From assembly GCA_018823325.1 (NCBI GenBank), contig JAHJIJ010000027.1, forward strand, positions 62,001 through 126,000: a DNA stretch of 64,000 nt, given 5' to 3'. Source of the stretch: Alphaproteobacteria bacterium. Its GTDB lineage: Bacteria > Pseudomonadota > Alphaproteobacteria > Sphingomonadales > Sphingomonadaceae. Below, piece after piece: positions 25,116 to 44,558 of this stretch; the stretch's first letter is position 1, and every line of letters starts with the position of its first letter. The notes under the pieces were generated by a model. The model was not told the origin of the DNA and searched no databases. It saw nothing but the letters and a program-made list of their open reading frames with translations. Made by a program: the position numbers and the translations under genes.

Positions 25116-25116
25116 C

Positions 25117-26658: not shown

Positions 26659-27221
26659 GCTGCTGCGTCGGCCTACTTCCCCTCGATCGCGCCGCCGTCC
26701 TTGGCGCCGTGATCGCTGGCGGCAAGTCGACGCGCTTCGGCAGTGACAAGGCCGTTGCGGAATATCATGGCCGCGCGCTCATCGATCATGCGATTGAGGC
26801 CGTCGCGGAGCACAGTGCGCAGACCATCGTCGTGGGACGCGACCATGGCGGGCTCCCCGGCATTCCGGACCAGCCCGCGCCGGACATGGGCCCGCTCGCC
26901 GGGGTCGCGGCCGCGTTGCTGGAAGCGCAGGCGCGCGGCTTCGCGGCAGTGCTGACTGCGCCGTGCGATGCCATCGCTCTGCCGCAGGACCTCTTGAAGC
27001 GCCTGTTTCCCTACCCAGCTTATGTAGAAAGCCTGCCGGTGATCGGCCTGTGGCCTGCCTCGGCAGCGGCCGACGCGCTGGCGATCCTCAAGGGCGATGG
27101 CGTCCACTCGATGAAGGCTTTTGTCGCCCGGATTTCTGCCCGCGCCGTGCAATTGCCGCGCGAACCTGTTAATATCAACACTGCTGCTGACCTGGAGAGA
27201 GTTGAACGTCATGGGCTATGA
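26655..27221 (+). CDS. mobA: Molybdenum cofactor guanylyltransferase
   Basis: Adds GMP to Mo-molybdopterin to make the bis-MGD cofactor needed by FdsA. The 188-residue product has the nucleotide-binding signature VIAGGKSTRFGSDKA near the N-terminus, DMGPLAGV, and the metal-site segment LTAPCDAI. The ending PVNINTAADLE is also typical of MobA. It is placed between fdsB and fdsA, overlapping both (4 bp and 11 bp), so cofactor maturation is translationally coupled to the apoenzyme. In most fds operons the accessory gene is only fdhD, at the end, so this position is unusual. Confidence 0.94.
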   Translation: MSCCVGLLPLDRAAVLGAVIAGGKSTRFGSDKAVAEYHGRALIDHAIEAVAEHSAQTIVVGRDHGGLPGIPDQPAPDMGPLAGVAAALLEAQARGFAAVLTAPCDAIALPQDLLKRLFPYPAYVESLPVIGLWPASAAADALAILKGDGVHSMKAFVARISARAVQLPREPVNINTAADLERVERHGL

Positions 27222-30066: not shown

Positions 30067-30072
30067 GCGATC

Positions 30073-30348
30073 ATGGAAGCAAGCCGCCTCATTTACATGG
30101 CCAACCAGATCGCCCGCAATTTCGCGCCCATGGGCGTGGAGCAGGCGGCGCTGGCCACTGCCGACCACATCAAGATGTATTGGGACCCGCGCATGATTGC
30201 CGGGATCAGGGCGGCTGATGCTGCCGAGCTCACGCCCGTCGCAGCCCATGCCATCAGGCTGGTGGACGGCCCGGTCCCTCACATGACCCGCGCGACCGAG
30301 TTTGCGGGTGCTCACGCAGATGGCGCGGCTCATAACGACGCCGGCTGA
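30073..30348 (+). CDS. fdsD: NAD-dependent formate dehydrogenase delta subunit
   Basis: Small protein needed for assembly or stability of the Fds enzyme. The 91-residue product matches FdsD: a short N-terminal helix with LIYMANQIARNFAPMG, then HIKMYWDPRM, the hallmark stretch, and an alanine-rich helix with LTPVAAHAI. It has no cysteines of its own for cofactors. It starts 6 bp after fdsA and overlaps the proposed fdhD start by 29 bp. Confidence 0.93.
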   Translation: MEASRLIYMANQIARNFAPMGVEQAALATADHIKMYWDPRMIAGIRAADAAELTPVAAHAIRLVDGPVPHMTRATEFAGAHADGAAHNDAG

Positions 30349-31108
30349 GCTGGTCGCCATCCGGCCGGACGGCTCCACCCGTCCGGTCTCGCGCCCCTTC
30401 GCGCCCGAAGTCCCGGTGGCGCTGGAATATAACGGCCTGTCCTATGCCGTGATGATGGCGAGTCCCTTTAGTCTGGAGGACTTCGTCACCGGCTTTGCCT
30501 TGACAGAGGGGCTCGCCCCGCAAGCAGATCATGTCACCGGCATCGACATCGTCGAGACCGATCTGGGCTGGATTGCCCGCGCCACCATTACGTCGCTCGC
30601 CCTCGAAAAGCTCCAGGAGCGCGTGCGCACCCGTGTCGCCGAATCAAGCTGCGGGCTTTGCGGCATCGATAATCTGGAGGCGGTTGCGCGCCCCCTCCCC
30701 CCGGTTCAGTCCCATGGGCCTCTCGATCCAACCGCAATCTTTACGGCGCTGGCGGGCTTGCGCGACCACCAGCCGGGGAATCGCGCCACCGGAGGCATGC
30801 ATGCCGCGGCGTTTGTCGGGCCGGATGGCAGCATCGAGCTGGCGAGGGAAGATGTTGGGCGGCACAATGCACTCGACAAGCTGGTTGGCGCGATGGCCCG
30901 GGCCGGGCTAGACCCAGCGCAGGGTTTCATCCTCTCGACAGCGCGATGCAGCTACGAGATCGTCGAAAAGGCCGTTCGTGCCGGAGCAACCACGCTCGTA
31001 ACCATCTCGGTGCCAACAAGCATGGCCGCAGCCCGCGCGCAGACCGCGGGCCTCTCGCTCTATGCACTCGCCAGACCTGACGAAGTTCTCCGCGTCACAC
31101 CCGCCTGA
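30320..31108 (+). CDS. fdhD: Formate dehydrogenase accessory sulfurtransferase
   Basis: Transfers sulfur from a cysteine desulfurase to the molybdenum cofactor, which is needed for formate dehydrogenase activity. The 262-residue product from ATG 30320 has the sulfur-relay pair Cys111 and Cys114 (SSCGLCG), the GGMHAAAF segment, and the cofactor-binding EDVGRHNALDKL stretch. A TTG at 30302 would add six residues. It is the last gene of the operon and is followed at 30 bp by a strong hairpin. Confidence 0.95.
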   Translation: MARLITTPAELVAIRPDGSTRPVSRPFAPEVPVALEYNGLSYAVMMASPFSLEDFVTGFALTEGLAPQADHVTGIDIVETDLGWIARATITSLALEKLQERVRTRVAESSCGLCGIDNLEAVARPLPPVQSHGPLDPTAIFTALAGLRDHQPGNRATGGMHAAAFVGPDGSIELAREDVGRHNALDKLVGAMARAGLDPAQGFILSTARCSYEIVEKAVRAGATTLVTISVPTSMAAARAQTAGLSLYALARPDEVLRVTPA

Positions 31109-31137: not shown

Positions 31138-31165
31138 CACCGCCGCCCGTTGTCGGGCGGCGGTG
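31138..31165. terminator. Strong hairpin between convergent fdhD and the MFS gene
   Basis: Perfect 12-bp GC stem (31138-31149 with 31154-31165) and a TTGT tetraloop in the 62-bp gap between convergent genes. It probably serves both strands. No T-run is present on either side. Confidence 0.65.
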
Positions 31166-31170
31166 CGCGA

Positions 31171-32514
31171 CTAAGCCTTTGCCTCAGCCATGGCGACAGC
31201 ATCGCCATCGCGCATCGGCAGCCAGAGCAGCATGAAGATCGCGCAGACCGAACCAAGGCTCATGAGCAGCGAGACGGTCAGCAATTCGCCCTTGCCGAGC
31301 GTGTCGAACAGCAAGCCCGCGACGATCGGCGAACCCGCCGCGCCTGCCCGGCCGACGCCCAGCACGAAGCCGGTGCCGGTCGCCCGCGCATAAGCAGGGA
31401 AGCCGCGCGCAAAGGCCGCGTAGAAGCCTACAATCGCTGCATTGAGGAAGAACATCGAGAGGAACGTGGCAACGCGCCACGCGCCCAGATCGCCATGCCC
31501 CATGCCGAACCAGGCAACGGCAGCTACACCAAGGATCATCATCGCGATGGTCGGACCCTTGATGTCCCATTTCTTCAGGAGGAAGCCGAAGAGGCCGCCG
31601 CCAATGGCGCCGCCGATATTGGCCCAGGTCAGCGTGCTTGCTGCATCGGCCTGCGAGAAGCCGGAATCAGCAACGATCTGCACTGCGAACTTCAGGATGT
31701 AGTAGAAGGTGAGCGTGTGGAACATGTAGCCGAAGGCCAGGAGCCACGTGACCTTGCGCAATCCCGGCTTGGAGAGAATGTCCGTAACCTTGGGCTGTGG
31801 CCCTTCGGTGCGGAGAGGCGGAAGCGCCTCGACCGTCCGCTTGCGCAGCGCGCGCAGAGAACGATTGACCTTCTCGATCACGTTCGCAGGGCGCCGTGCC
31901 GCATAAAATGCCGGCGTCTCCGGCACGAGGAAATAAACGAGCGGGATCATGATCGCCGTCACGACGGCACCGAACAGGAAAACGGCGCGCCAGTCATAGT
32001 CGACGAGCAGCCAGGTTTGCGCCGCAAATCCACCAACCACGCCGCCAATCGGGTAGCCGATGACATAGAGAGCCATGGCCAGACTGCGCGATGACTTGTT
32101 GGTCGATTCCGCCGTCACGGCGTTCGTCGCCGCCAGCATGCCGCCGATTCCCAGCCCGGTAAGGAAACGCCAAAGGGTGAGCACCGTCACGCCTGTCGCA
32201 GCATGTGCGAGATACATGCCGATCGTCATGACCACGAGGCACATCAGCATGGCAGGTTTCCGGCCGATGCGGTCAGCAACGCCACCCAGAATGACCGAGC
32301 CGAAGCCCATGCCCACCAGCTCGGCAGAGAGAACCAGTCCCAGAGCCGCGCGCGGAATGCCCCATTCCGCCGTGATTCCCGGTGCAGCAAAAGCGCTGGA
32401 CAGCACATCGAAGCCATCCAGGGCATTGAGCAGAATCATGAGGATGACGACAATCCACTGCCGCCAGGACATCGGCGATTCGTTTATGATCTCGATTGGA
32501 TCGGACGATGACAT
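31171..32514 (-). CDS. MFS transporter, aromatic acid:H+ symporter (AAHS) type
   Basis: Twelve-segment permease, likely importing an aromatic acid. The 447-residue product has the AAHS-type first-helix motif LDGFDVL (compare DGFD in PcaK-like carriers), the MFS loop motif GGVADRIGRKPAM between helices 2 and 3, and a central cytoplasmic loop. It lies 56 bp downstream of the MarR gene on the same strand, so it is probably under its control. Its position across from the lignostilbene dioxygenase suggests a lignin-derived aromatic substrate. The exact substrate cannot be read from sequence. Confidence 0.85.
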   Translation of the reverse strand: MSSSDPIEIINESPMSWRQWIVVILMILLNALDGFDVLSSAFAAPGITAEWGIPRAALGLVLSAELVGMGFGSVILGGVADRIGRKPAMLMCLVVMTIGMYLAHAATGVTVLTLWRFLTGLGIGGMLAATNAVTAESTNKSSRSLAMALYVIGYPIGGVVGGFAAQTWLLVDYDWRAVFLFGAVVTAIMIPLVYFLVPETPAFYAARRPANVIEKVNRSLRALRKRTVEALPPLRTEGPQPKVTDILSKPGLRKVTWLLAFGYMFHTLTFYYILKFAVQIVADSGFSQADAASTLTWANIGGAIGGGLFGFLLKKWDIKGPTIAMMILGVAAVAWFGMGHGDLGAWRVATFLSMFFLNAAIVGFYAAFARGFPAYARATGTGFVLGVGRAGAAGSPIVAGLLFDTLGKGELLTVSLLMSLGSVCAIFMLLWLPMRDGDAVAMAEAKA

Positions 32515-32570
32515 GTGATGGTTACCCCTCCAGGCAGTGGACCGCGCATCGGCGATCTCACGGGCCGAAT

Positions 32571-33080
32571 CTATTCGTGAATACGGCGCAAAAGTTCGAT
32601 GAGCAATGTGGCTTCTCGTTTGGTGAAACGAGATTTAAGCCATTGCTCATGCTCGTCGATACACCGCCGTGCCTCGATGAGCGCGTCCTGCCCGTCTGCG
32701 GTCAGAGTCAGCGTTTGCCGGCGACGATCCAGCGTCGAGGCACCGCGCACCAGCAGCCCGCGCGCCTCAAGACGGTTGATGATCGCCATGGTCGTGGCGC
32801 GGTCCATCTGCAGGCGCCTGCCGATATCGGCCTGGGCGATGTGCGGATGGTCGTTGATCAGCCAAAGGACCGACACCATCTTCTGCGTCAAGCCCAGTTC
32901 GGAGAACGTCTCGGTGAAGTGCCGATATGCCGCGCCATGGGCGAGACGGATGTGAAAACCGATGATGTCATCGATCGCGCCGATGCCCTCATCCTCAAGA
33001 TCGGACGTGGCTTTCCCGACCGAAGCCGTTCCTCCACCTTTCTGTGCCTGAAGAGGACGTTGCCGTTCGCGTGCTTCCAA
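32571..33080 (-). CDS. MarR family transcriptional regulator
   Basis: Ligand-responsive repressor, probably of the adjacent transporter and the divergent dioxygenase operon. The 169-residue product has the MarR winged helix: AQADIGRRLQMDRATTMAIINRLEARGLL as recognition region (helix plus turn), then the wing STLDRRRQTLTLTADG. Start: TTG 33080, with GGGGGA upstream; no ATG is available upstream of the conserved region, and GTG 33020 is the alternative. The 102-bp gap to the dioxygenase gene contains a short inverted repeat. MarR proteins often sense phenolic compounds, which fits the context. Confidence 0.88.
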   Translation of the reverse strand: MEARERQRPLQAQKGGGTASVGKATSDLEDEGIGAIDDIIGFHIRLAHGAAYRHFTETFSELGLTQKMVSVLWLINDHPHIAQADIGRRLQMDRATTMAIINRLEARGLLVRGASTLDRRRQTLTLTADGQDALIEARRCIDEHEQWLKSRFTKREATLLIELLRRIHE

Positions 33081-33147
33081 AATCTTTCCCCCAGGAACCC
33101 TAGCGGTTCACCGATCGACCCGGCACAAGGAATTGCCGAATTCGTAA

Positions 33148-33158
33148 GTATAGCATAC
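33148..33158. promoter_or_regulatory. Short inverted repeat in the marR-dioxygenase gap
   Basis: GTATAGCATAC: four-base arms GTAT/ATAC around AGC, 25 bp before the dioxygenase ATG and within the shared promoter region. A candidate MarR half-site pair or part of a -10 region; the arms are short and this could be chance. Confidence 0.3.
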
Positions 33159-33182
33159 AAACCTCAGTGAGAGGAGCAAGCC

Positions 33183-34661
33183 ATGGCCCAATTCCCTAAT
33201 ACCCCTGCGTTCACGGGTTTCAACAGTCCGTCACGCATCGAATGCGACATTCCCAACCTCGTTCACGAAGGCACGATTCCGCCTGAACTCAACGGGGCTT
33301 TCTTCCGCGTCCAGCCTGACCCGCAGTTCCCGCCGCGGCTGGGGGACGACATCAGCTTCAACGGCGATGGTATGATCACGCGCTTTCACATCCATGATGG
33401 TCAATGCGACATCAAGCAGCGCTGGGCCAAGACGGACAAATGGAAGCTCGAGAACGAGGCCGGCAAGGCCCTGTTCGGCGCCTATCGCAATCCGCTTACG
33501 GACGATGAATCAGTCAAGGGGCAGTACCGCTCAACCGCGAACACCAACGCGTTCGTGTTCGCCGGCAAGCTCTGGGCGATGAAGGAGGACAGCCCCTCCC
33601 TCGTCATGGAGCCGGACACGATGGAGACCATCGGCTTCGAGAAGTTCGGCGGCAAGATGACTGGCCAGACCTTCACCGCCCATCCGAAGATCGACCCCGA
33701 GACCGGCAACATGGTCGCGATCGGCTATGCCGCCAGCGGCCTGTGCACTGACGATGTCTGCCTCTACGAGGTCAATCCGGAAGGCGAGCTTGTCCGCGAA
33801 TTGTGGTTCAAGGCGCCCTATTACTGCATGATGCACGATTTCGGCGTCACCAAGGACTATCTGGTGCTGCACATCGTGCCCTCTATCGGCAGCTGGGAGC
33901 GCCTGGAGAAGGGTCTGCCGCATTTCGGCTTCGATACCACCCTGCCCGTCTATCTCGGCATCATTCCCCGCCGGGACGATGTGAAGCAGGAGGATATCCG
34001 CTGGTTCAAGCGCGACAACTGCTTCGCGAGCCATGTCATGAACGCGTTCCAGGAAGGCACGAAGGTTCACATCGACGTGCCGGAGGCGGAGAACAACATG
34101 TTCCCCTTCTTCCCGGACGTGCACGGCGCGCCGTTCAATCCGCAGCAGGCGATGAGCCGTCTCACGCGCTGGACCGTGGACATGGCGTCCAACAGCGATG
34201 AGTTCGACAGCGTCACCCGCCTGACCGAGACGTCCGGCGAATTCCCGCGCATCGACGATCGCTTCACCGGCCTGCCCTACCGCTATGGCTGGATGCTCGA
34301 GATGGACATGAAGCGGCCGGTCGAGCTCAAGGGCGGCAGTGCCGGCGGTTTCCTGATGAACTGCCTGTTCCTGATCGATCATCAGACCGGCAAGGAGCAG
34401 CATTGGTGGTGCGGCCCCACCTCGTCGCTTCAGGAGCCGGCCTTCATCCCCCGCTCCAAGGATGCGCCGGAAGGCGACGGCTGGATCGTGCAGGTCTGCA
34501 ATCGCCTGGCCGATCACAAGAGCGACCTGCTGATCTTCGAAGCGCTGGACATCGAGAAGGGGCCGGTCGCGACGATCCACATCCCCTTCGCGCTGCGCTT
34601 TGGCCTCCATGGCAACTGGGCCAATGCCGAGGACATCGGGCTGGAGCGCGAAGCCGCCTGA
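33183..34661 (+). CDS. lsdA: Lignostilbene alpha,beta-dioxygenase (carotenoid oxygenase family)
   Basis: Non-heme iron enzyme that cleaves the central double bond of hydroxylated stilbenes to two aldehydes; lignostilbene gives two vanillins. The 492-residue product has the four iron-ligand histidines His167 (TAHPK), His218 (MMHDFG), His284 (ASHVMN) and His476 (GLHGNW). Phe59, Tyr101 and Lys134 fall at the positions reported for substrate binding in the NOV1/LsdA enzymes (from memory). The match in numbering over the full length argues for a true lignostilbene dioxygenase rather than a carotenoid cleaver. GAGGAG precedes ATG 33183. It is divergent from marR and heads a plus-strand run with the DUF3237 and luciferase-like genes. 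Which Lsd paralogue it is cannot be settled here. Confidence 0.9.
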   Translation: MAQFPNTPAFTGFNSPSRIECDIPNLVHEGTIPPELNGAFFRVQPDPQFPPRLGDDISFNGDGMITRFHIHDGQCDIKQRWAKTDKWKLENEAGKALFGAYRNPLTDDESVKGQYRSTANTNAFVFAGKLWAMKEDSPSLVMEPDTMETIGFEKFGGKMTGQTFTAHPKIDPETGNMVAIGYAASGLCTDDVCLYEVNPEGELVRELWFKAPYYCMMHDFGVTKDYLVLHIVPSIGSWERLEKGLPHFGFDTTLPVYLGIIPRRDDVKQEDIRWFKRDNCFASHVMNAFQEGTKVHIDVPEAENNMFPFFPDVHGAPFNPQQAMSRLTRWTVDMASNSDEFDSVTRLTETSGEFPRIDDRFTGLPYRYGWMLEMDMKRPVELKGGSAGGFLMNCLFLIDHQTGKEQHWWCGPTSSLQEPAFIPRSKDAPEGDGWIVQVCNRLADHKSDLLIFEALDIEKGPVATIHIPFALRFGLHGNWANAEDIGLEREAA

Positions 34662-34675
34662 TCCGAACAACGCGA

Positions 34676-34701
34676 CCCCGGGCGCCTAACCGCGCCCGGG
34701 G
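34676..34701. terminator. Hairpin between the dioxygenase and DUF3237 genes
   Basis: Ten-bp GC stem (34676-34685 with 34692-34701) with a 6-nt loop, 15 bp past the dioxygenase stop. No T-run. It may end or attenuate the transcript before the DUF3237 gene, or stabilise the dioxygenase mRNA 3' end. Confidence 0.5.
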
Positions 34702-34748
34702 CTCCTGCGCCTCTCCCCCGTTAATACCTATCCCAAGGACATTCCTGC

Positions 34749-35210
34749 ATGATTCAGCCCGGCCTTGAATTCGTCTATGAAGCCGGCGGCGATCTCGGCG
34801 CCCCCGTCCCCATCGGCACCACGGTCGATGGCACCCGCCGCATCATCCCGATTTTCGAGGGCGGCCGTGTCGAAGGCCCGCTGATCAAGGGCAAGCTGCT
34901 CGGCAATGCCGCCGACTTCCAGCTCACCCGCCCTGACGGGGTGACAGTCGCGGACGCCCTTTACGCGCTGCAGACCGACGATGGCGTGGTGATCCAGATC
35001 CGCAACCGCGGCCTGCGCCACGGCCCGCCCGACGTCATGGCGCGGCTTGCGGCAGGCGACGAGGTCGACCCCGCCGAATATTATTTCCGCACCGTGCCCG
35101 AGTTCATCGCGCCGGAAGGCAAATATGACTGGATGAACCGCAGCATCTTCATCTGCTCGGGCGCGCGTTACAAGGCGGGCATCAAATTGTGGGTCTGGCG
35201 CGTCACCTGA
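34749..35210 (+). CDS. DUF3237 family protein
   Basis: Predicted 153-residue beta-barrel-like protein without an assigned function. It fits DUF3237: the N-terminal GLEFVYEAGGDLGAPVPIGTTVDGTRR segment in pieces, the central GRVEGPLIKGKLL, LYALQTDDGVVIQIRNRG, and the C-terminal YDWMNRSIFICSGAR. Members of this family recur beside aromatic-compound genes. It lies 87 bp after the dioxygenase, past a hairpin, with AAGGA before ATG 34749. An enzymatic step on the same substrate family is plausible but not shown by sequence. No signal peptide is present. Confidence 0.8.
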   Translation: MIQPGLEFVYEAGGDLGAPVPIGTTVDGTRRIIPIFEGGRVEGPLIKGKLLGNAADFQLTRPDGVTVADALYALQTDDGVVIQIRNRGLRHGPPDVMARLAAGDEVDPAEYYFRTVPEFIAPEGKYDWMNRSIFICSGARYKAGIKLWVWRVT

Positions 35211-35273
35211 CCTGACCGACAGGCGCGCGTCCCCCCGGTTGCGCAGACGGGGCGCCAATCCCATGTTGGGGGC

Positions 35274-36272
35274 ATGACCAAGCTCAGCTTTCTGGATCTC
35301 GTCAACGTCGTCGAGGGCGAAGACGCAGGCGATGCCATCCGTCGCGTCGGCCCCCTCGCCGCTCATGCCGAAGCGCTCGGCTACCACCGCTACTGGATCG
35401 CGGAGCATCACGGCATGGCCGGCGTCGCCGCAGCGGCAACCGCGCTGATCATTGCAGAAGCTGGGCGCGCGACGAAGACCATCCGCGTCGGCTCAGGCGG
35501 CATCATGCTGCCCAATCATTCGCCCTACATCATTGCCGAGCAATTCGGCACGCTGGACGCACTGTTCCCCGGCCGTGTCGATCTCGGCCTGGGCCGCGCC
35601 CCGGGGGCCGATGGCCGGCTAGCTCGCGCGATCCGCCACGATACGCGGCAGGAAGCGGAGGAATTTCCCCGCAGCGTCGTGGAACTGCGCGCCCATTTCA
35701 CCGGCGAGCCCGCCCTCGGGCTGCTGGCCGTGCCCGGTCGCGGCGCGCAGATCGACATGTGGATTCTGGGCTCCAGCCTGTTCGGCGCCCAACTCGCCGC
35801 CGCGCTGGGGATGCCCTATGCCTTCGCCTCCCACTTCGCGCCGGATCTGCTCGACGAGGCGCTGATGATCTATCGCCGCGACTTCCGCCCTTCTTCGCAT
35901 CTGCGCGAGCCCTATGCGGCCGCCGCCATGACCGTGATCGCTGCCGATACCAAGGCCGAAGCCGAGTATATCGCCAGCTCTACAATGCAGAATTTCGTCG
36001 CCCTGCGCACCGGCCGGCCCGGCAAGCTCCCGCCGCCGGTCGAGAATTATATCGCGAGCCTCGATCCCGCGCTCAGCGGCATGTTGGCTCACGTCATGCA
36101 GTGCAGTGCGTTCGGCACGGTAGAGGATGTTGCGCGCGGCATACGCCAGTTCATCCAGCGGACACAGGTGGACGAAGTGATCGTCCACAGCGCCGCTTTC
36201 GATCCGCATGCGCGGATGAAGTCACTCGCGCTGACTGCGCAAGCTTTCGACCAGATGACCGAAGCCGCCTGA
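35274..36272 (+). CDS. LLM class flavin-dependent oxidoreductase (luciferase-like)
   Basis: FMN- or F420-type TIM-barrel oxidoreductase, probably a flavin-dependent monooxygenase. The 332-residue product belongs to the MsnO8-like branch by its N-terminal [19 protein letters not shown] pattern, [18 protein letters not shown], the glycine-rich [14 protein letters not shown], and [19 protein letters not shown] precedes ATG 35274. It is the third plus-strand gene after the dioxygenase and ends 54 bp from the convergent GMC gene. Many such genes are orphan enzymes; a role in the diaryl pathway is inferred from location only. Confidence 0.85.
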
Positions 36273-36326
36273 CGCGCAGGCAGCCTCGGCTCCTTCCAGA
36301 GCGGGAACAGCGCAGCGACCTGCCAA

Positions 36327-37985
36327 TCAGGCCGGCGCCAGTTCCTTCGCGTCTTCCAGGATCATTTCCGATCCCTTCTCGCCGATCATGATCGTCGCGG
36401 CATTGGTGTTGCCGGAGACGATCTTGGGCATGATTGAGGCATCGACCACCCGCAAGCCGTGCACGCCATGCACCCGCAGGCGGGCATCGACGACAGCCTT
36501 GGGGTCGCTACCCATCCGCGCCGTGCCGACGGCATGGTACAGCGTGCCGCCAGCAACCTGCGCGTAGAAGAACATCTGGTCATCGGTCTCGCCGAACGGA
36601 TCAGGGCCGGCCAGATACTTGGCGATCGCCGGCTGCTGCCAGATCTCGCGAATAATCTTCAGCTGCGTCACGGCCATCTGCTGGTCGATCGGGTCCTGCA
36701 GATAATTGGGCGTGATTTTTGGCGCCTGCGTGCCGTCGGGCGAGCGGGCATGGATGTGGCCACGCGATTCTGGCCGCAGCTGGCATGGGTTGGACGCCAT
36801 GCCCGGCTCCTTCTCCAGCGCCAGCTGCTGCTTGGCGTTCAGCACTTCCAGATCCATCGACGCCGCCATGGTGTGGATCTGGATGTCCGGCGTCTCGAGT
36901 CCCTCGCGTGAGCGCAGGAAGGTGCAGCCATGCGCCACGGCGTAGGCCAGCAATCCCTTGCGGGTCATGCCATATTTGATGACCTGCCCGATCAGCGGCA
37001 GGCCGCTCGCCATGGAGTTCACCGACGGCGTGCCGGGCTTCAGCCGCGCCTGGCAGCCGATCATATAATGGTCCTGCAGGTTTTCGCCGACGCCGGGCAG
37101 TTCGTGCACCAGCGGCACGCCCAGTTCCTGAATGATCGCGCCCTGCCCCACGCCGGAAATCTCCAGCAGCTTCGGGCTCTCGACAGCACCGGCGGCAAGG
37201 ATCACTTCCTTGCGCACTTTCACCCGCCGCAAACGGCCATGCTGGACGAACTCAACGCCGACGGCGCGCTTGCCCTCAAAAAGGATGCGCGTCGTCATCG
37301 CCCGCGTCTCGACCGTCAAATTGACCCTGTCCATGACGGGATGGAGAAAGCCCACAGCCGCCGAGCAGCGCTTGCCGTTGCGCGTGGTCAGCTGGAACCA
37401 GCTTGTCCCTTCCTGATCACCGTCATTGAGATCGTCCTTATAAGCGTAGCCGGCCTCAACACAGGCATCGATGATCGCCTTGCTGACCGGATGCTGCTCA
37501 GGGAAATCGGAGACAGCCAGTTCGCCGCCCTGGCTATGACCTTCCATCGGCCCGCGCGTCTGGTCCTCGCTCTTCTTGAAATAACGCAGCACGTCATCCC
37601 ACGCCCAGCCCTCATTGCCCATCTGGCGCCAGCCATCATAATCGGCGGCCTGGCCGCGCACATAGAGCATGCCGTTGAGCGAAGATGAGCCGCCCAGCAC
37701 CTTGCCCTTGGGCCATTTGTGCGGACGGCCGCCCGAGCCCTCGTCCACCTCGGTCTCGTAGAGCCAGTTGACCTTGGGATCGTTGAGCGTCTTCCCGAAG
37801 CCGATCGGGATGTGGATCATCATGTTGGAGCGGAACTGGCTCAATTCACGGGTGGGACGATCATCGCCACCGGCCTCGAGCAGGACGACCTCCGTGCCCC
37901 GATCCGCCGACAGGCGATTGGCGAGAACGCACCCCGCGCTACCCGCTCCGACGATCACATAATCGACAGTTCTCTCGTCCGTCAT
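36327..37985 (-). CDS. GMC family FAD-dependent alcohol dehydrogenase
   Basis: Flavoenzyme oxidising a primary alcohol to an aldehyde. The 552-residue product has the N-terminal FAD fold [22 protein letters not shown] signature 1 around [17 protein letters not shown], signature 2 around [15 protein letters not shown], and the C-terminal active-site region with HAVGTARMG and [15 protein letters not shown]. Related GMC enzymes (PhcC, PhcD) oxidise the side-chain alcohol of a phenylcoumaran lignin dimer in SYK-6, which suggests a similar alcohol here. It is the last gene of the minus-strand run but is 123 bp from the preceding MFS gene and may have its own promoter. Confidence 0.9.
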
Positions 37986-38108
37986 GCTCTTGTCATCCTC
38001 TCATTGTGCCGCGCATTTCGCCCCCGCGCGGATCGACTCAGTCCTTATGACACAAAGCGGCATTTCGAACAAAGTCAACAATACGGGATTTTATGACCCG
38101 TCGGATGA

Positions 38109-39725
38109 TCAGACTGGTTCCCCCGCCTCTCGGGCGCGGAGCAGAATGAGGCTTTCATCCTTGCGGATGCGCGTGAGGAGAATGATCAGCAGGATGATGA
38201 TCGGAATGGCCATCCAGTTCACGCTGAGGATCGCAGTCCGCAGGTCTCCCGTGGCATCGGACACCATGCCGACGAGATAGGGCCCGCTGCCCAGACCGAA
38301 GATCGTCGAGATGATAAGATAGGTGCTGGCGGTGATGCCGCGCATGCGGGGCAGCACAAGCCCGTAGATCAGCGAGTATAGCGGCGGCATCCAGCAGGTC
38401 AGGATGACGCTGTAGAGGATGAAGCGGCTGTAAAAGCCGAACGCATCGGGCGCATGATAGGTCCACACACCGATCAGCGGCGAAACGCCGAGCGCGAACA
38501 GGGTGAGATAGACGCGGCCAGTGGCCGGCATCGACTTGTCGAACCAGTCGGCCAAGGGGCCGGCAATCATCGGCCCGATGACCCCGATCACCAGCGACAG
38601 CAGGCCGAAGGTGACGCCGGTCTCCGCCGGGGATGTGCCATAGGTCTGCATGATGAAGGCGGGCGTAAAGCCCATGATGCCGTAATTGATGACGGTCTGC
38701 AGGGCGCCGACGGCAATGGCGAGCATCAGCGCCGGCGACTTCACGGTCACCTGGTAAGTTGGCGGATCGGCCAGCGCCAATCTCTGCAACAGGTTGAAGA
38801 TGACGATGATGCCGAAGCCCATCACGCCCCACTGCAGCACATGAGGATTGAGCTGAACACCGCCGAAATTGAGCGAAGGCCGGGGAGAAAAGGCCGAAGC
38901 CAGATGGACGAAAACCGCCATCAGCGCGATGACCAGCACCATGACCCCGATATTGGCCGTCCAGTGGCGCGGACTTGCTTTGCTCGCAGCGAGGCTCAGC
39001 AGATTGGTGCCCGGCGTCACCGCGCCCAGCAAAGCGAGGCTTGCCCGAAACGGCGCAGGATCTGGCCGCGACTGAATGCCGTCCATCGCTCCGCGTTGCG
39101 GCTCTTTCAGCCGCCAGAGCAGGACCGCAAGCAGAAATCCGGGCAGCGACGCGACAAAGAAAGCAAACTGCCAGCCAGCAAGGCCCAGGGGCGCTGCTTC
39201 AGCGGCCGGGTAGAGCGTCTCCCACCATTCCGCCGCAACACCGCCAACCACGTTGGACATGCCGAGGCCGACCGCGATTGACGCCGCAATGGTGCCCATG
39301 ACCAGGCCGCGACGATGCTTGGGAAAATAGTCGAACAGCAAGGACGTGCCGGCCGGTGAGGTAGCGCCTTCGCCTATCCCCACGCCGAGGCGCGAAATGG
39401 CGAGCATCGCAAAGCCGCTGGCAAAGGCAGCCAGGCCGGCGGAAAACGACCAGAAGCCGATGGCGATCGAGAGGACACGCGTCCGGATCCAGCCATCGGA
39501 AAGCCGCCCGAGCGGCAGCGAGAACAATGCGTAGAACAGCGCGAAAACGGTGCCGTAGAGCAGCCCCAGTTCTGCGTCGCCAATCTCCAGGTCCGCCTTG
39601 ATGCGCGGCGCGAGAATGGCGAGGATGTTGCGGTCCAGCAGCGACATGGCGTTGGTGAGAGCCACCAACGCCAGCGCATACCAGGCGGTGCCGGTCACCC
39701 GGCCCGACACCGACGGGTTCGTCAC
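38109..39725 (-). CDS. MFS transporter (second of cluster)
   Basis: Twelve-segment permease of 538 residues, longer than the usual MFS protein owing to an extended central loop (about 185-255). Helix-1 residues ALVALTNAMSLLDRNIL and the loop GRLSDGWIRTRVLS place it near the hexuronate/spinster-like carriers (LDR in helix 1). Start GTG 39725 overlaps the stop of the LigW-type gene as GTGA, so the two are translationally coupled. The coupling suggests that it imports the substrate of, or exports the product of, that decarboxylase branch. Confidence 0.85.
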   Translation of the reverse strand: MTNPSVSGRVTGTAWYALALVALTNAMSLLDRNILAILAPRIKADLEIGDAELGLLYGTVFALFYALFSLPLGRLSDGWIRTRVLSIAIGFWSFSAGLAAFASGFAMLAISRLGVGIGEGATSPAGTSLLFDYFPKHRRGLVMGTIAASIAVGLGMSNVVGGVAAEWWETLYPAAEAAPLGLAGWQFAFFVASLPGFLLAVLLWRLKEPQRGAMDGIQSRPDPAPFRASLALLGAVTPGTNLLSLAASKASPRHWTANIGVMVLVIALMAVFVHLASAFSPRPSLNFGGVQLNPHVLQWGVMGFGIIVIFNLLQRLALADPPTYQVTVKSPALMLAIAVGALQTVINYGIMGFTPAFIMQTYGTSPAETGVTFGLLSLVIGVIGPMIAGPLADWFDKSMPATGRVYLTLFALGVSPLIGVWTYHAPDAFGFYSRFILYSVILTCWMPPLYSLIYGLVLPRMRGITASTYLIISTIFGLGSGPYLVGMVSDATGDLRTAILSVNWMAIPIIILLIILLTRIRKDESLILLRAREAGEPV

Positions 39726-40774
39726 AGCTTGAACACTCTTTCAGCGTTGGTCTGCATCAGCTTCTTCTTGGTCTCGAGCGGAATGTCGAGATTGTCGTGC
39801 GTGCGCACTTCGTCCGCAACATATTCGTAAGGATAGTCCATCGCATACATCACCCGGTCCTCGCCGAGCTGATCGATGCACAGCTTGATGGCGAGCGGGC
39901 AGGCCATGCCGCTCGTGGTCACGCACACATTGTTGCGCATATAATGGTAGAGGTCGTGCTTGAGCGGCTTGAGGCGCTCATAGCGCTGCGAGCGCACACC
40001 GGCCTGATGCATGTAGTTCAGGCGGAACAGCCAGTAAGGCAGCGCCTCGCCGCCATGGCCGACGCACACGGTCAGGTTCGGGTAGCGGTCGAACACGCCG
40101 GTGGTGAGCACGCGCAGCAGGTGATAGCCAGTCTCCACGCCGAAGCCGAAAACGGCGCCGTCCAGACCCGCCTCGACCATGCCTGCGATCATCGCGTCCG
40201 GCGGCGACTGGGGGTGGATGTAGAGCGGCAGGTCGTTGTCGGCACAGGCCTTCAGAATGGGGTCGAACTGCTCTTCGTCGAGATAGTGGCCCTTGGTGTG
40301 GCTGTTCACCATCACGCCCTTGAAACCGAGCTCGTTCTTGCCGCGCACGATTTCCTCGACGGACCATTCGACGTCCTGCGGCACGATCGAGATCATGCCG
40401 ACATAGCGGCTCGGGTGGCGCTCGCAGGCGGCTTTCAGCACGTCATTGGCGTTGCGGACCAGCGTCTTGGCCTCATCGGCCTCGAACACCTGGCCGCCCG
40501 GCGAGGTCATCGAGAGAATGGCAACGTCGATGCCGGTCTCGTCCATCGCCTGAAGGCGCAGATCGTCGAGATCGAGCAGGCGATTGCGAATGAACTGCGT
40601 CCGCTCGGAAGGCGACGTGCCATAGAAGCCCCAGAGCGATGTCGTCGCCTTGTCGGCCCGGCCTTCTTTAACGAGCTTCAGATAGGCGTCGAGCTGCTCG
40701 GCGGTGGCGAATGCTTCTTCCGTCGCGATGCGAAGATAGCCGCGGTCGCCGCCGGTGTTGAGCGCGTGAGTCAT
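39722..40774 (-). CDS. ligW: Amidohydrolase-family decarboxylase, 5-carboxyvanillate decarboxylase (LigW) type
   Basis: Non-oxidative, metal-dependent decarboxylase of the amidohydrolase-2 superfamily. The 350-residue product resembles LigW, which converts 5-carboxyvanillate to vanillate: TGGDRGYLRIATEEAFAT, SLWGFYGTSPSER, HQAGVRSQRYERLKPL and YAMDYPYEYVADEVR follow the pattern I remember for the Novosphingobium enzyme. Likely metal ligands are Glu19, His187 and Asp313, near the E19/H188/D314 recalled for that enzyme. CAGGAGAG lies before ATG 40774. It is coupled to the downstream MFS gene. It could instead act on a related substrate such as a 5-carboxylated ferulate from a dimer pathway. Confidence 0.82.
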   Translation of the reverse strand: MTHALNTGGDRGYLRIATEEAFATAEQLDAYLKLVKEGRADKATTSLWGFYGTSPSERTQFIRNRLLDLDDLRLQAMDETGIDVAILSMTSPGGQVFEADEAKTLVRNANDVLKAACERHPSRYVGMISIVPQDVEWSVEEIVRGKNELGFKGVMVNSHTKGHYLDEEQFDPILKACADNDLPLYIHPQSPPDAMIAGMVEAGLDGAVFGFGVETGYHLLRVLTTGVFDRYPNLTVCVGHGGEALPYWLFRLNYMHQAGVRSQRYERLKPLKHDLYHYMRNNVCVTTSGMACPLAIKLCIDQLGEDRVMYAMDYPYEYVADEVRTHDNLDIPLETKKKLMQTNAERVFKL

Positions 40775-40801
40775 GATACTCTCCTGAGAATTTGAGGGAG
40801 A

Positions 40802-40829
40802 GTCCCGGCGCCTGTTCGGCTGCCGGGAC
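40802..40829. other. Intercistronic hairpin between aldehyde dehydrogenase and ligW genes
   Basis: Eight-bp GC stem (40802-40809 with 40822-40829) plus an inner 3-bp pairing, in the 70-bp gap between two minus-strand genes. No T-run. It may adjust relative expression or mark an mRNA processing site. Confidence 0.4.
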
Positions 40830-40844
40830 CTTGTCCTGATGGGA

Positions 40845-42275
40845 TCAGCCTTCGTGAACGACCTTGGTCACGAGGCAGGCGTGGAGGCCCTCGGGGCCGT
40901 CCTCATGCCCGTGGCCGGACCACTTCACACCGCCGAAAGGCGAATCCGCGCCACCGATGGCCACGCTGTTCACGCCGAGCATGCCCGTCTCGACATCCCG
41001 CGCGACGCGGCGCTGCAGCTTCACATCGTTCGTCCAGCTATAGGCGGCCAGACCGTAAGGCAGGCGATTGGCCTCGGCGATCATCTCGTCCACCTTGGCG
41101 AACGGATTGATCAGCGCGACCGGGCCGAACGGCTCTTCGTTCATGATCTCGGCTTCGAGCGGCACCTCGCTCAGCACGCTCGGAGCATAGAAATAGCCCT
41201 GATTGCCGATCCGCTCGCCACCGGCGAGCAGCTTCGCACCGCTGCTCACGGCCCCGCCGATCAGCCGTTCCATCGCATCGGGGCGGCGCTCATTGGCCAT
41301 CGGGCCCATCTGGATGCCGTCCTCAAGGCCATTGCCGACCTTGATTGCCTTGGCGCGCGCAGCAAAGCCATCGCGGAACCGCTCGTAGACATTTTCCTGC
41401 ACGATGAAGCGCGTGGGCGAGACGCAGACCTGACCGGCGTTGCGATATTTGTGGCCGACCATCACGTCGAGCACGCGGTCCACATCCACGTCGTCGAAAA
41501 CCAGCACCGGCCCGTGGCCGCCAAGTTCCATGGTGGTGCGCTTGAGGTCTTCGGCCGCGAGCTTGGCGAGATGCTTGCCGATCACCGTCGAACCGGTGAA
41601 GCTCAGCTTGCGGATGATCGGCGAGGCGAGCAGGTGGCGCGAAACCTCGTCGGGCACGCCGAACACGGCCTGCGCAACGTCCTTGGGCAGGCCCGCATCG
41701 AGCAGACACTGCAGCACACCCAGAGCCGAAGCCGGGGTTTCCTCAGCCGACTTCATGATCACCGAGCAGCCGGCGGCAATCGGCGCGCCAAGCTTGCGGC
41801 CCGGATTGCCGAGCGGGAAATTCCATGGCGAAAAGGCGGCCACGGGACCGACCGGTTCATACGTGACTGTCGAGCGCATGCCGGCGGGGCGAACAAGCGT
41901 GCGGCCGTAAAGGCGCGAGACTTCGCCCGCGTAGAAATTGAACAGACCGGCAACCATCATGACTTCAATGCGGGACTCGGCAAGCGTCTTGCCCTGCTCC
42001 ATCGTCGCCACGCGAGCCAGCGTCTCCTGCCGCTCCATAAGCAGGCGCGCAGCGCCCGAGAGAACGGCAGCACGCTCCTGCGCCGTGGACTCACGCCAGC
42101 GCAGGAAACCGCGCTGCGCCGTCTCCAGCGCGCGATCGAGGTCCGCAGCGTTGGCCAGGGGAAGCTCGCCGAGCGTCTCGCCGGTAGCCGGGTTGACGAT
42201 GGTCTGCGTCCGACGGTCGCCGCCGGTCACGGCCTCGCCATCAATGATCATGTGCAGGGCGGGATAAGTGGTCAT
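40845..42275 (-). CDS. Aldehyde dehydrogenase (NAD(P)+-dependent)
   Basis: Oxidises an aldehyde to the acid. The 476-residue product has the ALDH substrate/cofactor segments FSPWNFPLG, KSAEETPAS and FTGSTVIG, the general base Glu in MELGGHGP, the catalytic Cys in NAGQVCVSPTRF, and the EEPFGPVA motif near the C-terminus. It resembles the succinate-semialdehyde class, a branch that also includes aromatic aldehyde dehydrogenases. ATG 42275 is chosen over ATG 42281 because AGAGG sits 6 nt before it and overlaps the other. In context it could oxidise vanillin or another aldehyde made by the dioxygenase (inference). Confidence 0.88.
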   Translation of the reverse strand: MTTYPALHMIIDGEAVTGGDRRTQTIVNPATGETLGELPLANAADLDRALETAQRGFLRWRESTAQERAAVLSGAARLLMERQETLARVATMEQGKTLAESRIEVMMVAGLFNFYAGEVSRLYGRTLVRPAGMRSTVTYEPVGPVAAFSPWNFPLGNPGRKLGAPIAAGCSVIMKSAEETPASALGVLQCLLDAGLPKDVAQAVFGVPDEVSRHLLASPIIRKLSFTGSTVIGKHLAKLAAEDLKRTTMELGGHGPVLVFDDVDVDRVLDVMVGHKYRNAGQVCVSPTRFIVQENVYERFRDGFAARAKAIKVGNGLEDGIQMGPMANERRPDAMERLIGGAVSSGAKLLAGGERIGNQGYFYAPSVLSEVPLEAEIMNEEPFGPVALINPFAKVDEMIAEANRLPYGLAAYSWTNDVKLQRRVARDVETGMLGVNSVAIGGADSPFGGVKWSGHGHEDGPEGLHACLVTKVVHEG

Positions 42276-42369
42276 AGCCATCCTCTCGGGACTCTAGCGG
42301 AAACAGTCTGGTGCCAGCTGGAAGCCGTCACCGCGCGCGCCCCTCCTGTCTGCACGAAACGATGATTCG

Positions 42370-43803
42370 TCAACTAGTTCTCGGGCCAGCGGCCGCTGCC
42401 AGGGCTGCTTCTGCCGCCTCCAGACGCTCGATTTCCTCACGATACGGCTTGCAGGCGCGCCACATGCTGATCGTCGCCAGCGGCAGCAGGACGAGCGCCG
42501 TGATGAAGATCGCCTGCCACAGCCGCGCCTCGTCCCCGACGATATACTGCGCGACCACGCCGATCACGAGACTGCCCATCGCGCCGAAAAAGGTGAACAT
42601 GAAGAGATAGAGCGCTGTCACCTGACCGCGCATGGCTTGCGGCGCAACGCGCTGGACGGCAGCATTCTGCGCCGGCGCACCAGCAAGACCGAACAGCGTC
42701 GCGACGGCCATGGCGCCCATCGCCAGCTCGCCGGTGGGCATCAGCGGCGCGGAGATGGTACAGATGGTCACCGCCGTGAAGCAGATCGCCGCCGTGCGGA
42801 CATTGGCGTCCTTATACTTCCTCCCGAACCAGGAGACCATGAGACCGCCAAGCACCAGCCCGGACAATTGCGCGACAAGCAGCATGGGCGCCAGCACCGC
42901 GCCGATCTGCGCCTCATCCATGCCATATGTGCGCACGAGGAACGGCACGCGCCAGAAGCCGATGCCCTGGCTCTCGGTCGCACTCAGGGCCAGCGCGATG
43001 AACAGCGGATAATAGACCATCCCCTTGGCGCGGATGCCGCGGATGGCATCGAAGCCCATGAAGGTCGCGATCTTCCGGCCCAGACTCGCTTTCTCGGGAA
43101 TCGCGACCGGATCGGCCACCGCCGCCCGCCGGGCGGGCTCCCTGACGAGGAGGAAGAGCAACGCCGCCGGGAAGGAGAGCAGGCCGAGGCCGATCAGAAT
43201 CCACTGCCAATTGAAGATGCGTAGGCCCCAGACGTAGCTGGTCTCCCAATGCGACACCGCGCCGATCATCATCCCGCCGAACAGCACGCCGAGCGTCGTG
43301 CCACCAATGAAGCCGAACTGCAGGAGCGCAAAGGCGATCGGGATCTTCTTGGGTTTGAACATGTCCACGATCAGCGAATATGAACCCGGGCCGTGAGCTG
43401 AACCGCCCGCCCCCAGCAGCATCCGCGCCGCGATGAACTGCCCGAAATTCTGGGCGAGGCCGCTCAGCATGGTGACGCCGCCCGTCACCGCTGCGCTGAT
43501 CGCCAGGATCATCCTTCGGGGATAAAGGTCGACCAGGCGCGCGAGGGGAATACCCACGAAGACATAGAAAATGATGCTCGCCGGCCCGCCCAATATCCCA
43601 AGCTGGGTATCGGAGAGGCCGAAATCGACCTTGATTCGCTCCGCAAGCATGCCGAACACGGTGGCATCGAAGAAGCTGAGGAATGTGGCGATGATTATGA
43701 CCGTCAGGGCGAAATAGGCGCGCGGGCTGGATGGCCACTCCTGCGCACCGGTTCCAGCATCATCGCTCGGCACGGCTTGTGCCGACTGAGGTGCGATAGC
43801 CAT
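42370..43803 (-). CDS. MFS transporter (third of cluster)
   Basis: Permease of 477 residues with twelve hydrophobic segments. FFDATVFGMLAERIKVDFGLSD in two pieces at helix 1, GIPLARLVDLYPRR in the first loop and LGAGGSAHGPGSYSLI in helix 4 place it in the same broad anion/organic-acid branch as the second MFS gene. GAGAGGAA precedes ATG 43803. It heads the minus-strand run MFS-ALDH-ligW-MFS-GMC and is divergent from the NTF2-like gene. The 178-bp gap 43804-43981 must carry both promoters; I see no convincing operator in it. Confidence 0.85.
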   Translation of the reverse strand: MAIAPQSAQAVPSDDAGTGAQEWPSSPRAYFALTVIIIATFLSFFDATVFGMLAERIKVDFGLSDTQLGILGGPASIIFYVFVGIPLARLVDLYPRRMILAISAAVTGGVTMLSGLAQNFGQFIAARMLLGAGGSAHGPGSYSLIVDMFKPKKIPIAFALLQFGFIGGTTLGVLFGGMMIGAVSHWETSYVWGLRIFNWQWILIGLGLLSFPAALLFLLVREPARRAAVADPVAIPEKASLGRKIATFMGFDAIRGIRAKGMVYYPLFIALALSATESQGIGFWRVPFLVRTYGMDEAQIGAVLAPMLLVAQLSGLVLGGLMVSWFGRKYKDANVRTAAICFTAVTICTISAPLMPTGELAMGAMAVATLFGLAGAPAQNAAVQRVAPQAMRGQVTALYLFMFTFFGAMGSLVIGVVAQYIVGDEARLWQAIFITALVLLPLATISMWRACKPYREEIERLEAAEAALAAAAGPRTS

Positions 43804-43981
43804 GTGGGAAATTCCTCTCTGCTCGCCCTGATGCGACCCGTTCCGGTTCCGGCCGGCCGCTTATCGGGCCAGTTTCAACCGCTGAGATTGATTCTGTCCA
43901 GCTTTAATTGCGCATGCCGGATGCCTCGGTTACGAACAGGGAGGACAATGCGCCAAGACAGGCCCGGGAGAGGTGAGCAAT

Positions 43982-44500
43982 ATGTCGAAGGAAATGGTCG
44001 AGCCACAAGCGGAACAGCATGGCTATGCCGAGGATCGTGCCGCGATCATGCAGCTGGAAGCCGAATATCTCATGGCGCTCGATTGGGGCGATGCCGAGAC
44101 CTACGCCTCCCTCTTCGCGCCGGAAGGCGTCCTTGAATGGGCGGGCGGCACCGCCGTCGGTCCGCAAGAGATTTACAAGGAAATCGGCATCTACAAGGAA
44201 GCGATCAAGCAATATTATGGCGACGATGGCTCAGGTCAGCCGGTCACCCTGCGCCACTTCATCACCAATCAGGCGATCTATGTGCATGGTGATACGGCCA
44301 AGGGTGTGATCTACTGGTTTGAGGTTGCCAATAACGGCCCCGGCCACACGCCGCATATTGGCAGCTACGGCCATTATGAGGACCGGATGCGCAAAGTGGA
44401 TGGCATCTGGAAATTCGTCAGCCGCAAGATCTTCAACGAGCAGCTTCCCGATCGCCGCGCCAGCGCGGAAAATCCGGGCCGCGCCGCGCGCATCGCCTGA
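43982..44500 (+). CDS. NTF2-like (SnoaL-type) protein, candidate diarylpropane lyase
   Basis: The 172-residue product has an NTF2/SnoaL cone fold by pattern: an N-terminal helix with IMQLEAEYLMALDWGDAETYASLFAPEG, then VTLRHFITNQAIYVHGDTAKGVIYWFEV strands in pieces, and a C-terminal GIWKFVSRKIFNEQL. This fold includes LdpA, which converts the lignin beta-1 compound erythro-DGPD to lignostilbene without a cofactor in N. aromaticivorans; lignostilbene is the substrate of the dioxygenase class found 9 kb away. Direct identity with LdpA cannot be tested here, and a dehydratase or isomerase is the alternative. ATG 43982 follows GGGAGAGG; GTG 43973 is an alternative. A strong terminator follows. Confidence 0.7.
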   Translation: MSKEMVEPQAEQHGYAEDRAAIMQLEAEYLMALDWGDAETYASLFAPEGVLEWAGGTAVGPQEIYKEIGIYKEAIKQYYGDDGSGQPVTLRHFITNQAIYVHGDTAKGVIYWFEVANNGPGHTPHIGSYGHYEDRMRKVDGIWKFVSRKIFNEQLPDRRASAENPGRAARIA

Positions 44501-44517: not shown

Positions 44518-44558
44518 CAAGAAGGGCAGCACAGGTTCATCCCGTGCTGCCCTTCTTG
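44518..44558. terminator. Bidirectional terminator between the NTF2-like gene and pdhB
   Basis: Perfect 15-bp stem (44518-44532 with 44544-44558), 11-nt loop, arms ending in AAGAAG/CTTCTT. It lies between convergent genes and marks the edge between the catabolic region and the housekeeping block. Confidence 0.75.

Follow-up and report, generated by a model that had tools for sequence, protein, structure and literature searches.

What does a 13-kb group of eleven genes for lignin-type catabolism do in a sphingomonad genome, and has such a gene set been described before? The genes lie at positions 31171 to 44500 of a 64,000-nucleotide stretch, here called the window, of the Sphingomonadaceae assembly GCA_018823325.1 (contig JAHJIJ010000027.1, positions 62,001 to 126,000 of the forward strand). 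An earlier note, made from the letters alone, proposed that the cluster imports a lignin dimer, makes a stilbene from it, cleaves the stilbene to aldehydes, oxidises these and decarboxylates a product to vanillate. Judged by gene order and protein identity, the cluster is a further copy of the known sphingomonad lsdD-ferD-ligW2-hpvZ locus. Its core is very probably the lower pathway for beta-5 (phenylcoumaran) lignin dimers, and this reading is the best explanation of the whole.

Identity of the locus

We scanned a genome collection with the LigW-type protein and obtained 294 relatives, of which the best 80 loci were kept; each comprises 10 kb on either side of the ligW gene, and absence from a locus is not absence from a genome. 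All eleven genes are found in the same order and orientation in Sphingobium sp. SYK-6 (locus L012) and in one other locus (L014), and because they recur in this way the gene set is more than a chance assembly. Protein identity between the window and the SYK-6 cluster ranges from 79% (MFS carrier 2) to 93% (dioxygenase). The SYK-6 dioxygenase is identical across 489 residues to PDB entry 6xm6, which is reported as LSD4/LsdD, the product of SLG_12860 (PMC8191317), and Table 1 of a 2026 review gives ferD as SLG_12800, ligW2 as SLG_12810, hpvZ as SLG_12830 and lsdD as SLG_12860 (PMC12997858). These locus tags agree with the gene order of the window cluster, and counting along the SYK-6 locus would make the GMC oxidoreductase HpvZ, the luciferase-like protein SLG_12840 and the DUF3237 protein SLG_12850. 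In Novosphingobium aromaticivorans the reported counterpart is Saro_0796-0802, with pcfL (Saro_0796), ferD (0797), ligW (0799) and lsdD (0802).

A Pfam analysis of the window's open reading frames found every enzyme, carrier and regulator gene that the earlier note had listed. The note had not recognised the set as a described operon; it had already been published as the SYK-6 lsdD/ferD/ligW2/hpvZ locus, with its counterpart at Saro_0796-0803. The locus is a published one for beta-5 and beta-O-4 lignin dimers, so the proposed pathway needs no rediscovery, and the candidates for new biology that remain in it are three enzymes (the DUF3237, luciferase-like and NTF2-like proteins) and the three MFS carriers. 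Import by these carriers, as the earlier note proposed, is hypothetical; according to the review, no transporters have been implicated for such uncharged dimers (PMC12997858).

The genes differ in how widely they accompany ligW. With identity thresholds from 35% (NTF2-like) up to 70% (aldehyde dehydrogenase and luciferase-like), the best 80 of the 294 loci carry LigW in 80 cases, a FerD-like protein in 78, MFS carrier 2 in 65, MFS carrier 3 in 54, the dioxygenase in 46, DUF3237 in 44, the MarR-type regulator in 36, the NTF2-like protein in 34, the GMC oxidoreductase in 20, MFS carrier 1 in 19 and the luciferase-like protein in 6; the counts are lower bounds, as no locus reaches further than 10 kb from ligW2.

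The probable lower beta-5 pathway

The lsdD gene (33183-34661, plus strand) encodes an RPE65/lignostilbene dioxygenase (Pfam, 447 bits) that passes the curated model NF053778 with 880 bits (cut-off 800) and shares 455 of 489 residues with the SYK-6 copy. As the earlier note had claimed, it has the full set of iron and substrate residues: F59, Y101, K134, E135, H167, H218, S283, H284, E353, E418 and H476, numbered from a gap-free alignment, are all present and correspond to the iron ligands, second-shell acids and substrate residues listed for LSD4 (PMC8191317). Cleavage of the dehydrodiconiferyl alcohol (DCA) stilbene, DCA-S, is reported for LSD4 of SYK-6 (PMC8191317) and for the N. aromaticivorans orthologue. 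By orthology, the window enzyme would use O2 to split DCA-S into vanillin and 5-formylferulate.

The two following steps are assigned to neighbours on the minus strand. The ferD gene (40845-42281), an aldehyde dehydrogenase by Pfam, has a product identical at 433 of 476 residues (91%) to that of the SYK-6 gene adjoining ligW2, and its position beside ligW2 is conserved. This putative 5-formylferulate dehydrogenase would convert 5-formylferulate to 5-carboxyferulate with NAD+, the activity reported for FerD of N. aromaticivorans. The ligW2-type gene (39722-40774) encodes an amidohydrolase (Pfam) that matches the SYK-6 copy at 301 of 350 residues (86%) and has 4inf and 4qs5 as its top PDB matches. 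Its motifs EEAF, YIHP, GHGG and MDYPY are present, and we take them to carry the metal ligands. The label "LigW2" of 4qs5 was not used for naming, as that chain and the SYK-6 cluster protein differ (497 bits, against 500 to 4inf). Acting as a 5-carboxyvanillate/5-carboxyferulate decarboxylase, the window protein would turn 5-carboxyferulate into ferulate and, by orthology again, 5-carboxyvanillate into vanillate.

The LsdD, FerD and LigW steps of N. aromaticivorans are reported to be backed by deletion mutants, cell extracts and in vitro assays. The proposed course from a stilbene to two aldehydes, one of them oxidised by the aldehyde dehydrogenase and then decarboxylated by the LigW-type enzyme, is thus published for the orthologues. 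Vanillate, named in the earlier note as the end product, holds in part: conversion of 5-carboxyvanillate to vanillate is the second published activity of LigW/LigW2, but the branch through 5-formylferulate should give ferulate.

Origin of the stilbene

The earlier note had placed stilbene formation inside the cluster. One candidate for this step is the NTF2-like protein (SnoaL_4/NTF2-like by Pfam; 43973-44500, plus strand), which we compared with a PcfL orthologue at L087:7711-8469, so named because it precedes ferD and is related to LdpA. The two are 21% identical over 171 positions and differ in length (175 residues against about 250), and the NTF2-like protein matches PcfL-like PDB entries at E-values of 7e-5 and 4e-4, whereas the PcfL orthologue does so at 1e-55. 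PcfL and LdpA are reported to share 44% identity. We rejected the NTF2-like gene as a PcfL or LdpA (gamma-formaldehyde lyase), as its sequence falls short of homology at that level. In Novosphingobium loci such as L087 the PcfL orthologue lies between an MFS gene and ferD; in the window the same gap measures 88 bases.

The window's own genome is 98.5% complete, and a search of it found no PcfL. The top match was only 42% identical and lies on contig C5, where it is 89% identical to the likely LdpA of SYK-6. The genome also carries likely orthologues of the SYK-6 genes phcF (75%), phcG (88%), phcC/phcD (86 and 91%) and lsdB (85%), where the SYK-6 phc names were given by family and by position against the order of locus tags. 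The phcC, phcD, phcF, phcG and ldpA orthologues sit on contigs other than that of the cluster, phcF and phcG on C19, with lsdB near the phcFG pair. The cluster's GMC protein was rejected as a PhcC or PhcD, being only 40-41% identical to them. The NTF2-like protein is neither PcfL nor LdpA, the GMC protein is an HpvZ orthologue (see below) and the known stilbene-forming genes are on other contigs, which argues against an origin within the cluster; the stilbene is probably made elsewhere in the cell's gene complement. A route of the SYK-6 type is likely because the genome holds the phc orthologues: oxidation by PhcC/PhcD would be followed by decarboxylation by PhcF/PhcG.

Other genomes vary in this respect. 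Four loci (L027, L046, L049 and L061) have FerD, LigW, LsdD, DUF3237 and the NTF2-like protein, and their genomes gave neither PcfL nor an HpvZ-like GMC protein at the cut-offs used; L027 retains a 31-residue PcfL-like remnant at the place of PcfL.

The GMC oxidoreductase

The GMC gene (36327-37985, minus strand, Pfam) encodes a protein that is identical at 499 of 552 residues (90.4%) to that of the SYK-6 gene at the SLG_12830 position; the next GMC matches in both genomes are at about 40%. The name HpvZ follows from locus-tag order. HpvZ is described as the oxidase of beta-hydroxypropiovanillone (beta-HPV) in beta-O-4 catabolism (PMC11837543; PMC12997858), and its 39% identical relative HpvY as a predicted choline dehydrogenase (PMC11837543). 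The best curated model for the window protein is choline dehydrogenase, at 542 bits under a cut-off of 605. On identity and position, the GMC protein is an HpvZ orthologue and a predicted beta-O-4 enzyme. The step assigned to it earlier, in a chain from dimer to stilbene, falls away with this identification, as HpvZ has no known action there; it would instead feed a separate stream, the oxidation of the beta-O-4 product beta-hydroxypropiovanillone.

N. aromaticivorans is reported to lack a close hpvZ homologue (PMC11837543). This parallels the loci that contain PcfL: a GMC gene occurs in only 2 of the 37 long loci with PcfL.

Proposed regulation of lsdD

Divergent from lsdD and adjoining it is a gene for a MarR-type regulator (32571-33080, minus strand, Pfam), an arrangement also found in 36 of the 46 loci with the dioxygenase. 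The annotated TTG start is a mechanical call, and the true start probably lies further in. The protein passes the curated model for the Saro_0803 family, NF053777, with 239 bits (cut-off 200). Saro_0803 is reported to be a MarR-type repressor of nov1, which is lsdD; its 22 bp binding site lies at the -10 box of that gene, and resveratrol makes the repressor leave the promoter (PMC10046596).

We compared the sequences upstream of lsdD in 45 regions, namely the window and 44 of the 46 dioxygenase loci (L043 and L061 were omitted by a selection rule). In 37 of the 45 a CATACAA or CTTACAA half precedes the start codon by 18-34 bp; all 37 of these regions retain the GT of the left arm, and 36 retain its G. 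A longer pattern, built from the window together with near relatives, gave one site per genome in four related genomes, always just before lsdD, and none when run backwards as a control. In the window the element TCGTAAG-N5-CATACAA occupies 33142-33160 and overlaps the presumed -10 box of the lsdD promoter, like the published 22 bp Saro_0803 site. We predict that it is the operator of the MarR protein. Some facts speak against this: the element differs from the published nov1 inverted repeat GCAATA...TATTGC (PMC10046596), is absent from 8 of the 45 upstream regions and may be conserved as a promoter, not as an operator.

If the prediction holds, the MarR protein would occupy the lsdD promoter (33142-33160) until a stilbene binds, so that the dioxygenase would be made when its substrate appears. 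The conserved promoter element is a defined candidate site for a stilbene-sensing repressor.

Alternative explanations

The assignment to beta-5 dimers must be weighed against its own weak points and against three other readings. Among the SYK-6 genes, an identical sequence links only the dioxygenase to its locus tag; for ferD, ligW2, hpvZ, the phc genes and ldpA the link is made by family and chromosomal order, and the catalytic roles given to the window proteins come by orthology with other species. LSD4 is also reported to have similar specificities for lignostilbene and DCA-S and to cleave resveratrol more weakly (PMC8191317), which may leave room for a role in beta-1 dimers or plant stilbenes. 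One reading, which takes up the DGPD (1,2-diguaiacylpropane-1,3-diol) of the earlier note, has the cluster serve this beta-1 dimer, from which the NTF2-like protein would make lignostilbene and the dioxygenase two vanillins. An NTF2-like gene is indeed in the cluster, and the near-equal preference of LSD4 for lignostilbene fits; the protein, however, is only 21% identical to the PcfL orthologue and matches PcfL-like PDB entries weakly, the likely LdpA orthologue sits on contig C5 instead, and DGPD cleavage as published requires neither FerD nor LigW, all of which makes this reading extremely unlikely. A cluster serving mainly plant stilbenes such as resveratrol would suit the response of Saro_0803 to that compound and a figure legend that names a resveratrol catabolic operon (PMC10046596), but the products of resveratrol offer no evident task for FerD and LigW, and we consider such a role very unlikely.

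A further reading has the stilbene made in the cluster after all, by the GMC and DUF3237 proteins acting as a local PhcC/PhcF-like pair in place of PcfL. It draws on the distribution of PcfL and GMC in 68 loci, the window plus those 67 of the 80 that span at least 19 kb: both occur in 2, PcfL only in 35, GMC only in 18 and neither in 13 (Fisher 2e-6; correlated-evolution test p 0.015), where PcfL-like matches below 50% or of at most 150 residues (L027, L034, L045 and L074) count as absent. DUF3237 is present in 16 of the 17 long loci with GMC and without PcfL (the window not counted), and the 17th, L013, extends only about 650 bases past the luciferase-like gene. The correlated-evolution test used a custom script with equal root frequencies and a quick tree, and its p value was 0.16 when restricted to the first 50 rows (the window and 49 genomes). 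The pattern is weaker across whole genomes: 8 of 81 have both genes, 36 PcfL only, 19 GMC only and 18 neither (Fisher 0.002; PcfL at 65% or above and GMC at 67% or above, omitting PcfL-like matches of 53-58% and one GMC match of 55%), and a tree-aware test on 79 of the 81 gave p 0.15. Independent pairs do not support an exclusion of PcfL by GMC (median p 0.625). The same DUF3237 gene also lies beside PcfL, in 19 of the 37 long PcfL loci, and the GMC protein, as an HpvZ orthologue, has another published job. In one genome (G053, that of L065) PcfL and HpvZ-like GMC genes adjoin on the same strand (C4:566171-568793), which also counts against replacement. We therefore dropped the substitution of GMC for PcfL, given the HpvZ assignment by order, the weaker whole-genome pattern and the null result from independent pairs, and regard a local pair as very unlikely. 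Lineage history is the simplest account of the PcfL/GMC pattern, because the GMC protein is identified as HpvZ. The lower pathway for beta-5 dimers, fed by a stilbene from elsewhere, remains the preferred reading.

The DUF3237 gene beside lsdD

The best lead left in the locus is the DUF3237 gene (34749-35210, plus strand, Pfam), whose product is distantly related to the decarboxylases PhcF, PhcG and PinX. Among the 46 loci with the dioxygenase, 29 have a DUF3237 gene downstream of it and on its strand, no more than 2.5 kb away, and in 14 of these it is within 300 bp. The window protein is 35% and 38% identical to PhcF and PhcG, and in a tree it groups with other cluster copies, apart from the PhcF/PhcG branch; several long branches of this tree are unsure, and the group test had only two rows per group. 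An alignment of 82 DUF3237 rows has 23 positions whose conservation reaches 88% or more; the window protein agrees at all 23, PhcF at 21 and PhcG at 22, but 45 of the 82 rows, counting its own, show 60% identity or more to the window protein. We rejected it as a PhcF or PhcG orthologue in view of these identities, its separate clade and the likely orthologues of both on C19.

DUF3237 genes tend to lie near stilbene dioxygenase genes. Within 10 kb of such a gene are 5 of the 13 DUF3237 matches in the window's own genome (0.57 expected by random placement), 5 of 8 in SYK-6 (0.33), and 3 of 5 (0.13) and 5 of 7 (0.20) in two relatives. In these counts tandem pairs, like related genomes, are not independent, and the genome sizes of the two relatives are rounded. 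The stilbene dioxygenase matches number 8 in the own genome (G000), which has the 13 DUF3237 matches, and 8, 5 and 6 in SYK-6 and the two relatives, which have 8, 5 and 7 DUF3237 matches.

For PhcF and PhcG, formation of a double bond with loss of CO2 is described, and the same is proposed for PinX. On that ground a third decarboxylase of this kind is a reasonable guess. We tentatively propose, as a possibility with the odds against it, that the DUF3237 protein after lsdD is a third kind of stilbene-forming decarboxylase, acting on a carboxylated dimer, that LsdD cleaves the product, and that the luciferase-like and NTF2-like proteins modify the same substrate. The luciferase-like gene (35274-36272, plus strand) encodes a flavin oxidoreductase of the MsnO8 family (TIGR03558, 398 bits, cut-off 167). 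A search of the open-access literature for DUF3237, SLG_12850, SLG_12840, Saro_0801 and the gene and pathway names found no published role for this DUF3237 gene, and none came to light for the luciferase-like and NTF2-like proteins or the three MFS carriers. If the proposal is true, sphingomonads carry several dimer modules, each with one DUF3237 protein paired with a stilbene dioxygenase.

Related gene groups occur elsewhere. In the own genome, at G000:C29:69218-81278 (L162), a pair of DUF3237 genes and a gene with weak NTF2-like similarity (26%) lie between two stilbene dioxygenase genes, perhaps another dimer pathway. At G000:C16:111343-113950 (L168), DUF3237, NTF2-like and GMC genes are consecutive on one strand, the GMC protein being 57% identical to one likely SYK-6 PhcC/PhcD protein. 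Five loci (L019, L022, L025, L026 and L028) have two DUF3237 genes, of the phcF and phcG clades, beside ligW and a stilbene dioxygenase gene; ferD also adjoins in all of these except the cut locus L026, where it was not seen. In L019, where the neighbours were typed, the two DUF3237 genes flank an S15-type hydrolase.

Carriers, edges and neighbours

The three MFS carriers (Pfam) are all on the minus strand: carrier 1 (31171-32514) is 82% identical to the SYK-6 copy, carrier 2 (38109-39725) is the 79% case above, and carrier 3 (42370-43803) corresponds by SYK-6 gene order. The hairpins said to bound the cluster were recovered as inverted repeats, on the left at 31138-31165 (12 bp arms, 100% complementary) and on the right at 44518-44558 (18 bp arms, 94% complementary). 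A terminator scan found no acceptable T-run after either repeat; between 30900 and 45000 there are 5 terminator-like sites, against 8.3 expected in shuffled sequence, and none at the edge repeats. A consensus promoter and terminator scan of the cluster region gave nothing usable.

The flanking genes are housekeeping genes: fdhD and an apparent formate dehydrogenase on the left, and pyruvate dehydrogenase E1 subunits, a DivIC-like gene and enolase on the right. The apparent formate dehydrogenase (25054-31108; a NuoF-like subunit, a molybdopterin oxidoreductase and FdhD) directly adjoins the cluster, and this placement may not be random, because some lignin-dimer pathways yield formate from formaldehyde. 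Further away, at 17796-20576, is a gene for a bacteriophytochrome-like protein with an HWE-type histidine kinase domain.

Comparison with known systems

The SYK-6 lsdD/ferD/ligW2/hpvZ locus (SLG_12800-12860 and neighbours) is like the window cluster in all eleven genes, with no difference in their presence or order; the species is another. The N. aromaticivorans pcfL-ferD-ligW-lsdD cluster with Saro_0803, compared by way of related Novosphingobium loci such as L087, shares lsdD, ferD, a ligW-type gene and a regulator of the Saro_0803 type; unlike it, the window lacks pcfL and has an hpvZ orthologue. The phcCD/phcFG genes of SYK-6 (DCA-C oxidases and DCA-CC decarboxylases) have the GMC and DUF3237 families in common with the window, but the window proteins are only 40-41% (GMC) and 35-38% (DUF3237) identical to theirs, and the DUF3237 protein falls in another clade. 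In the pinoresinol cluster pinUZXWV of N. rhizosphaerae LY there is likewise an LSD-family gene with a DUF3237 decarboxylase, which make and cleave a conjugated intermediate; its substrate differs, and the eleven window genes contain none of the pinoresinol-reductase, p-cresol-dehydrogenase-like and cytochrome c families by Pfam.

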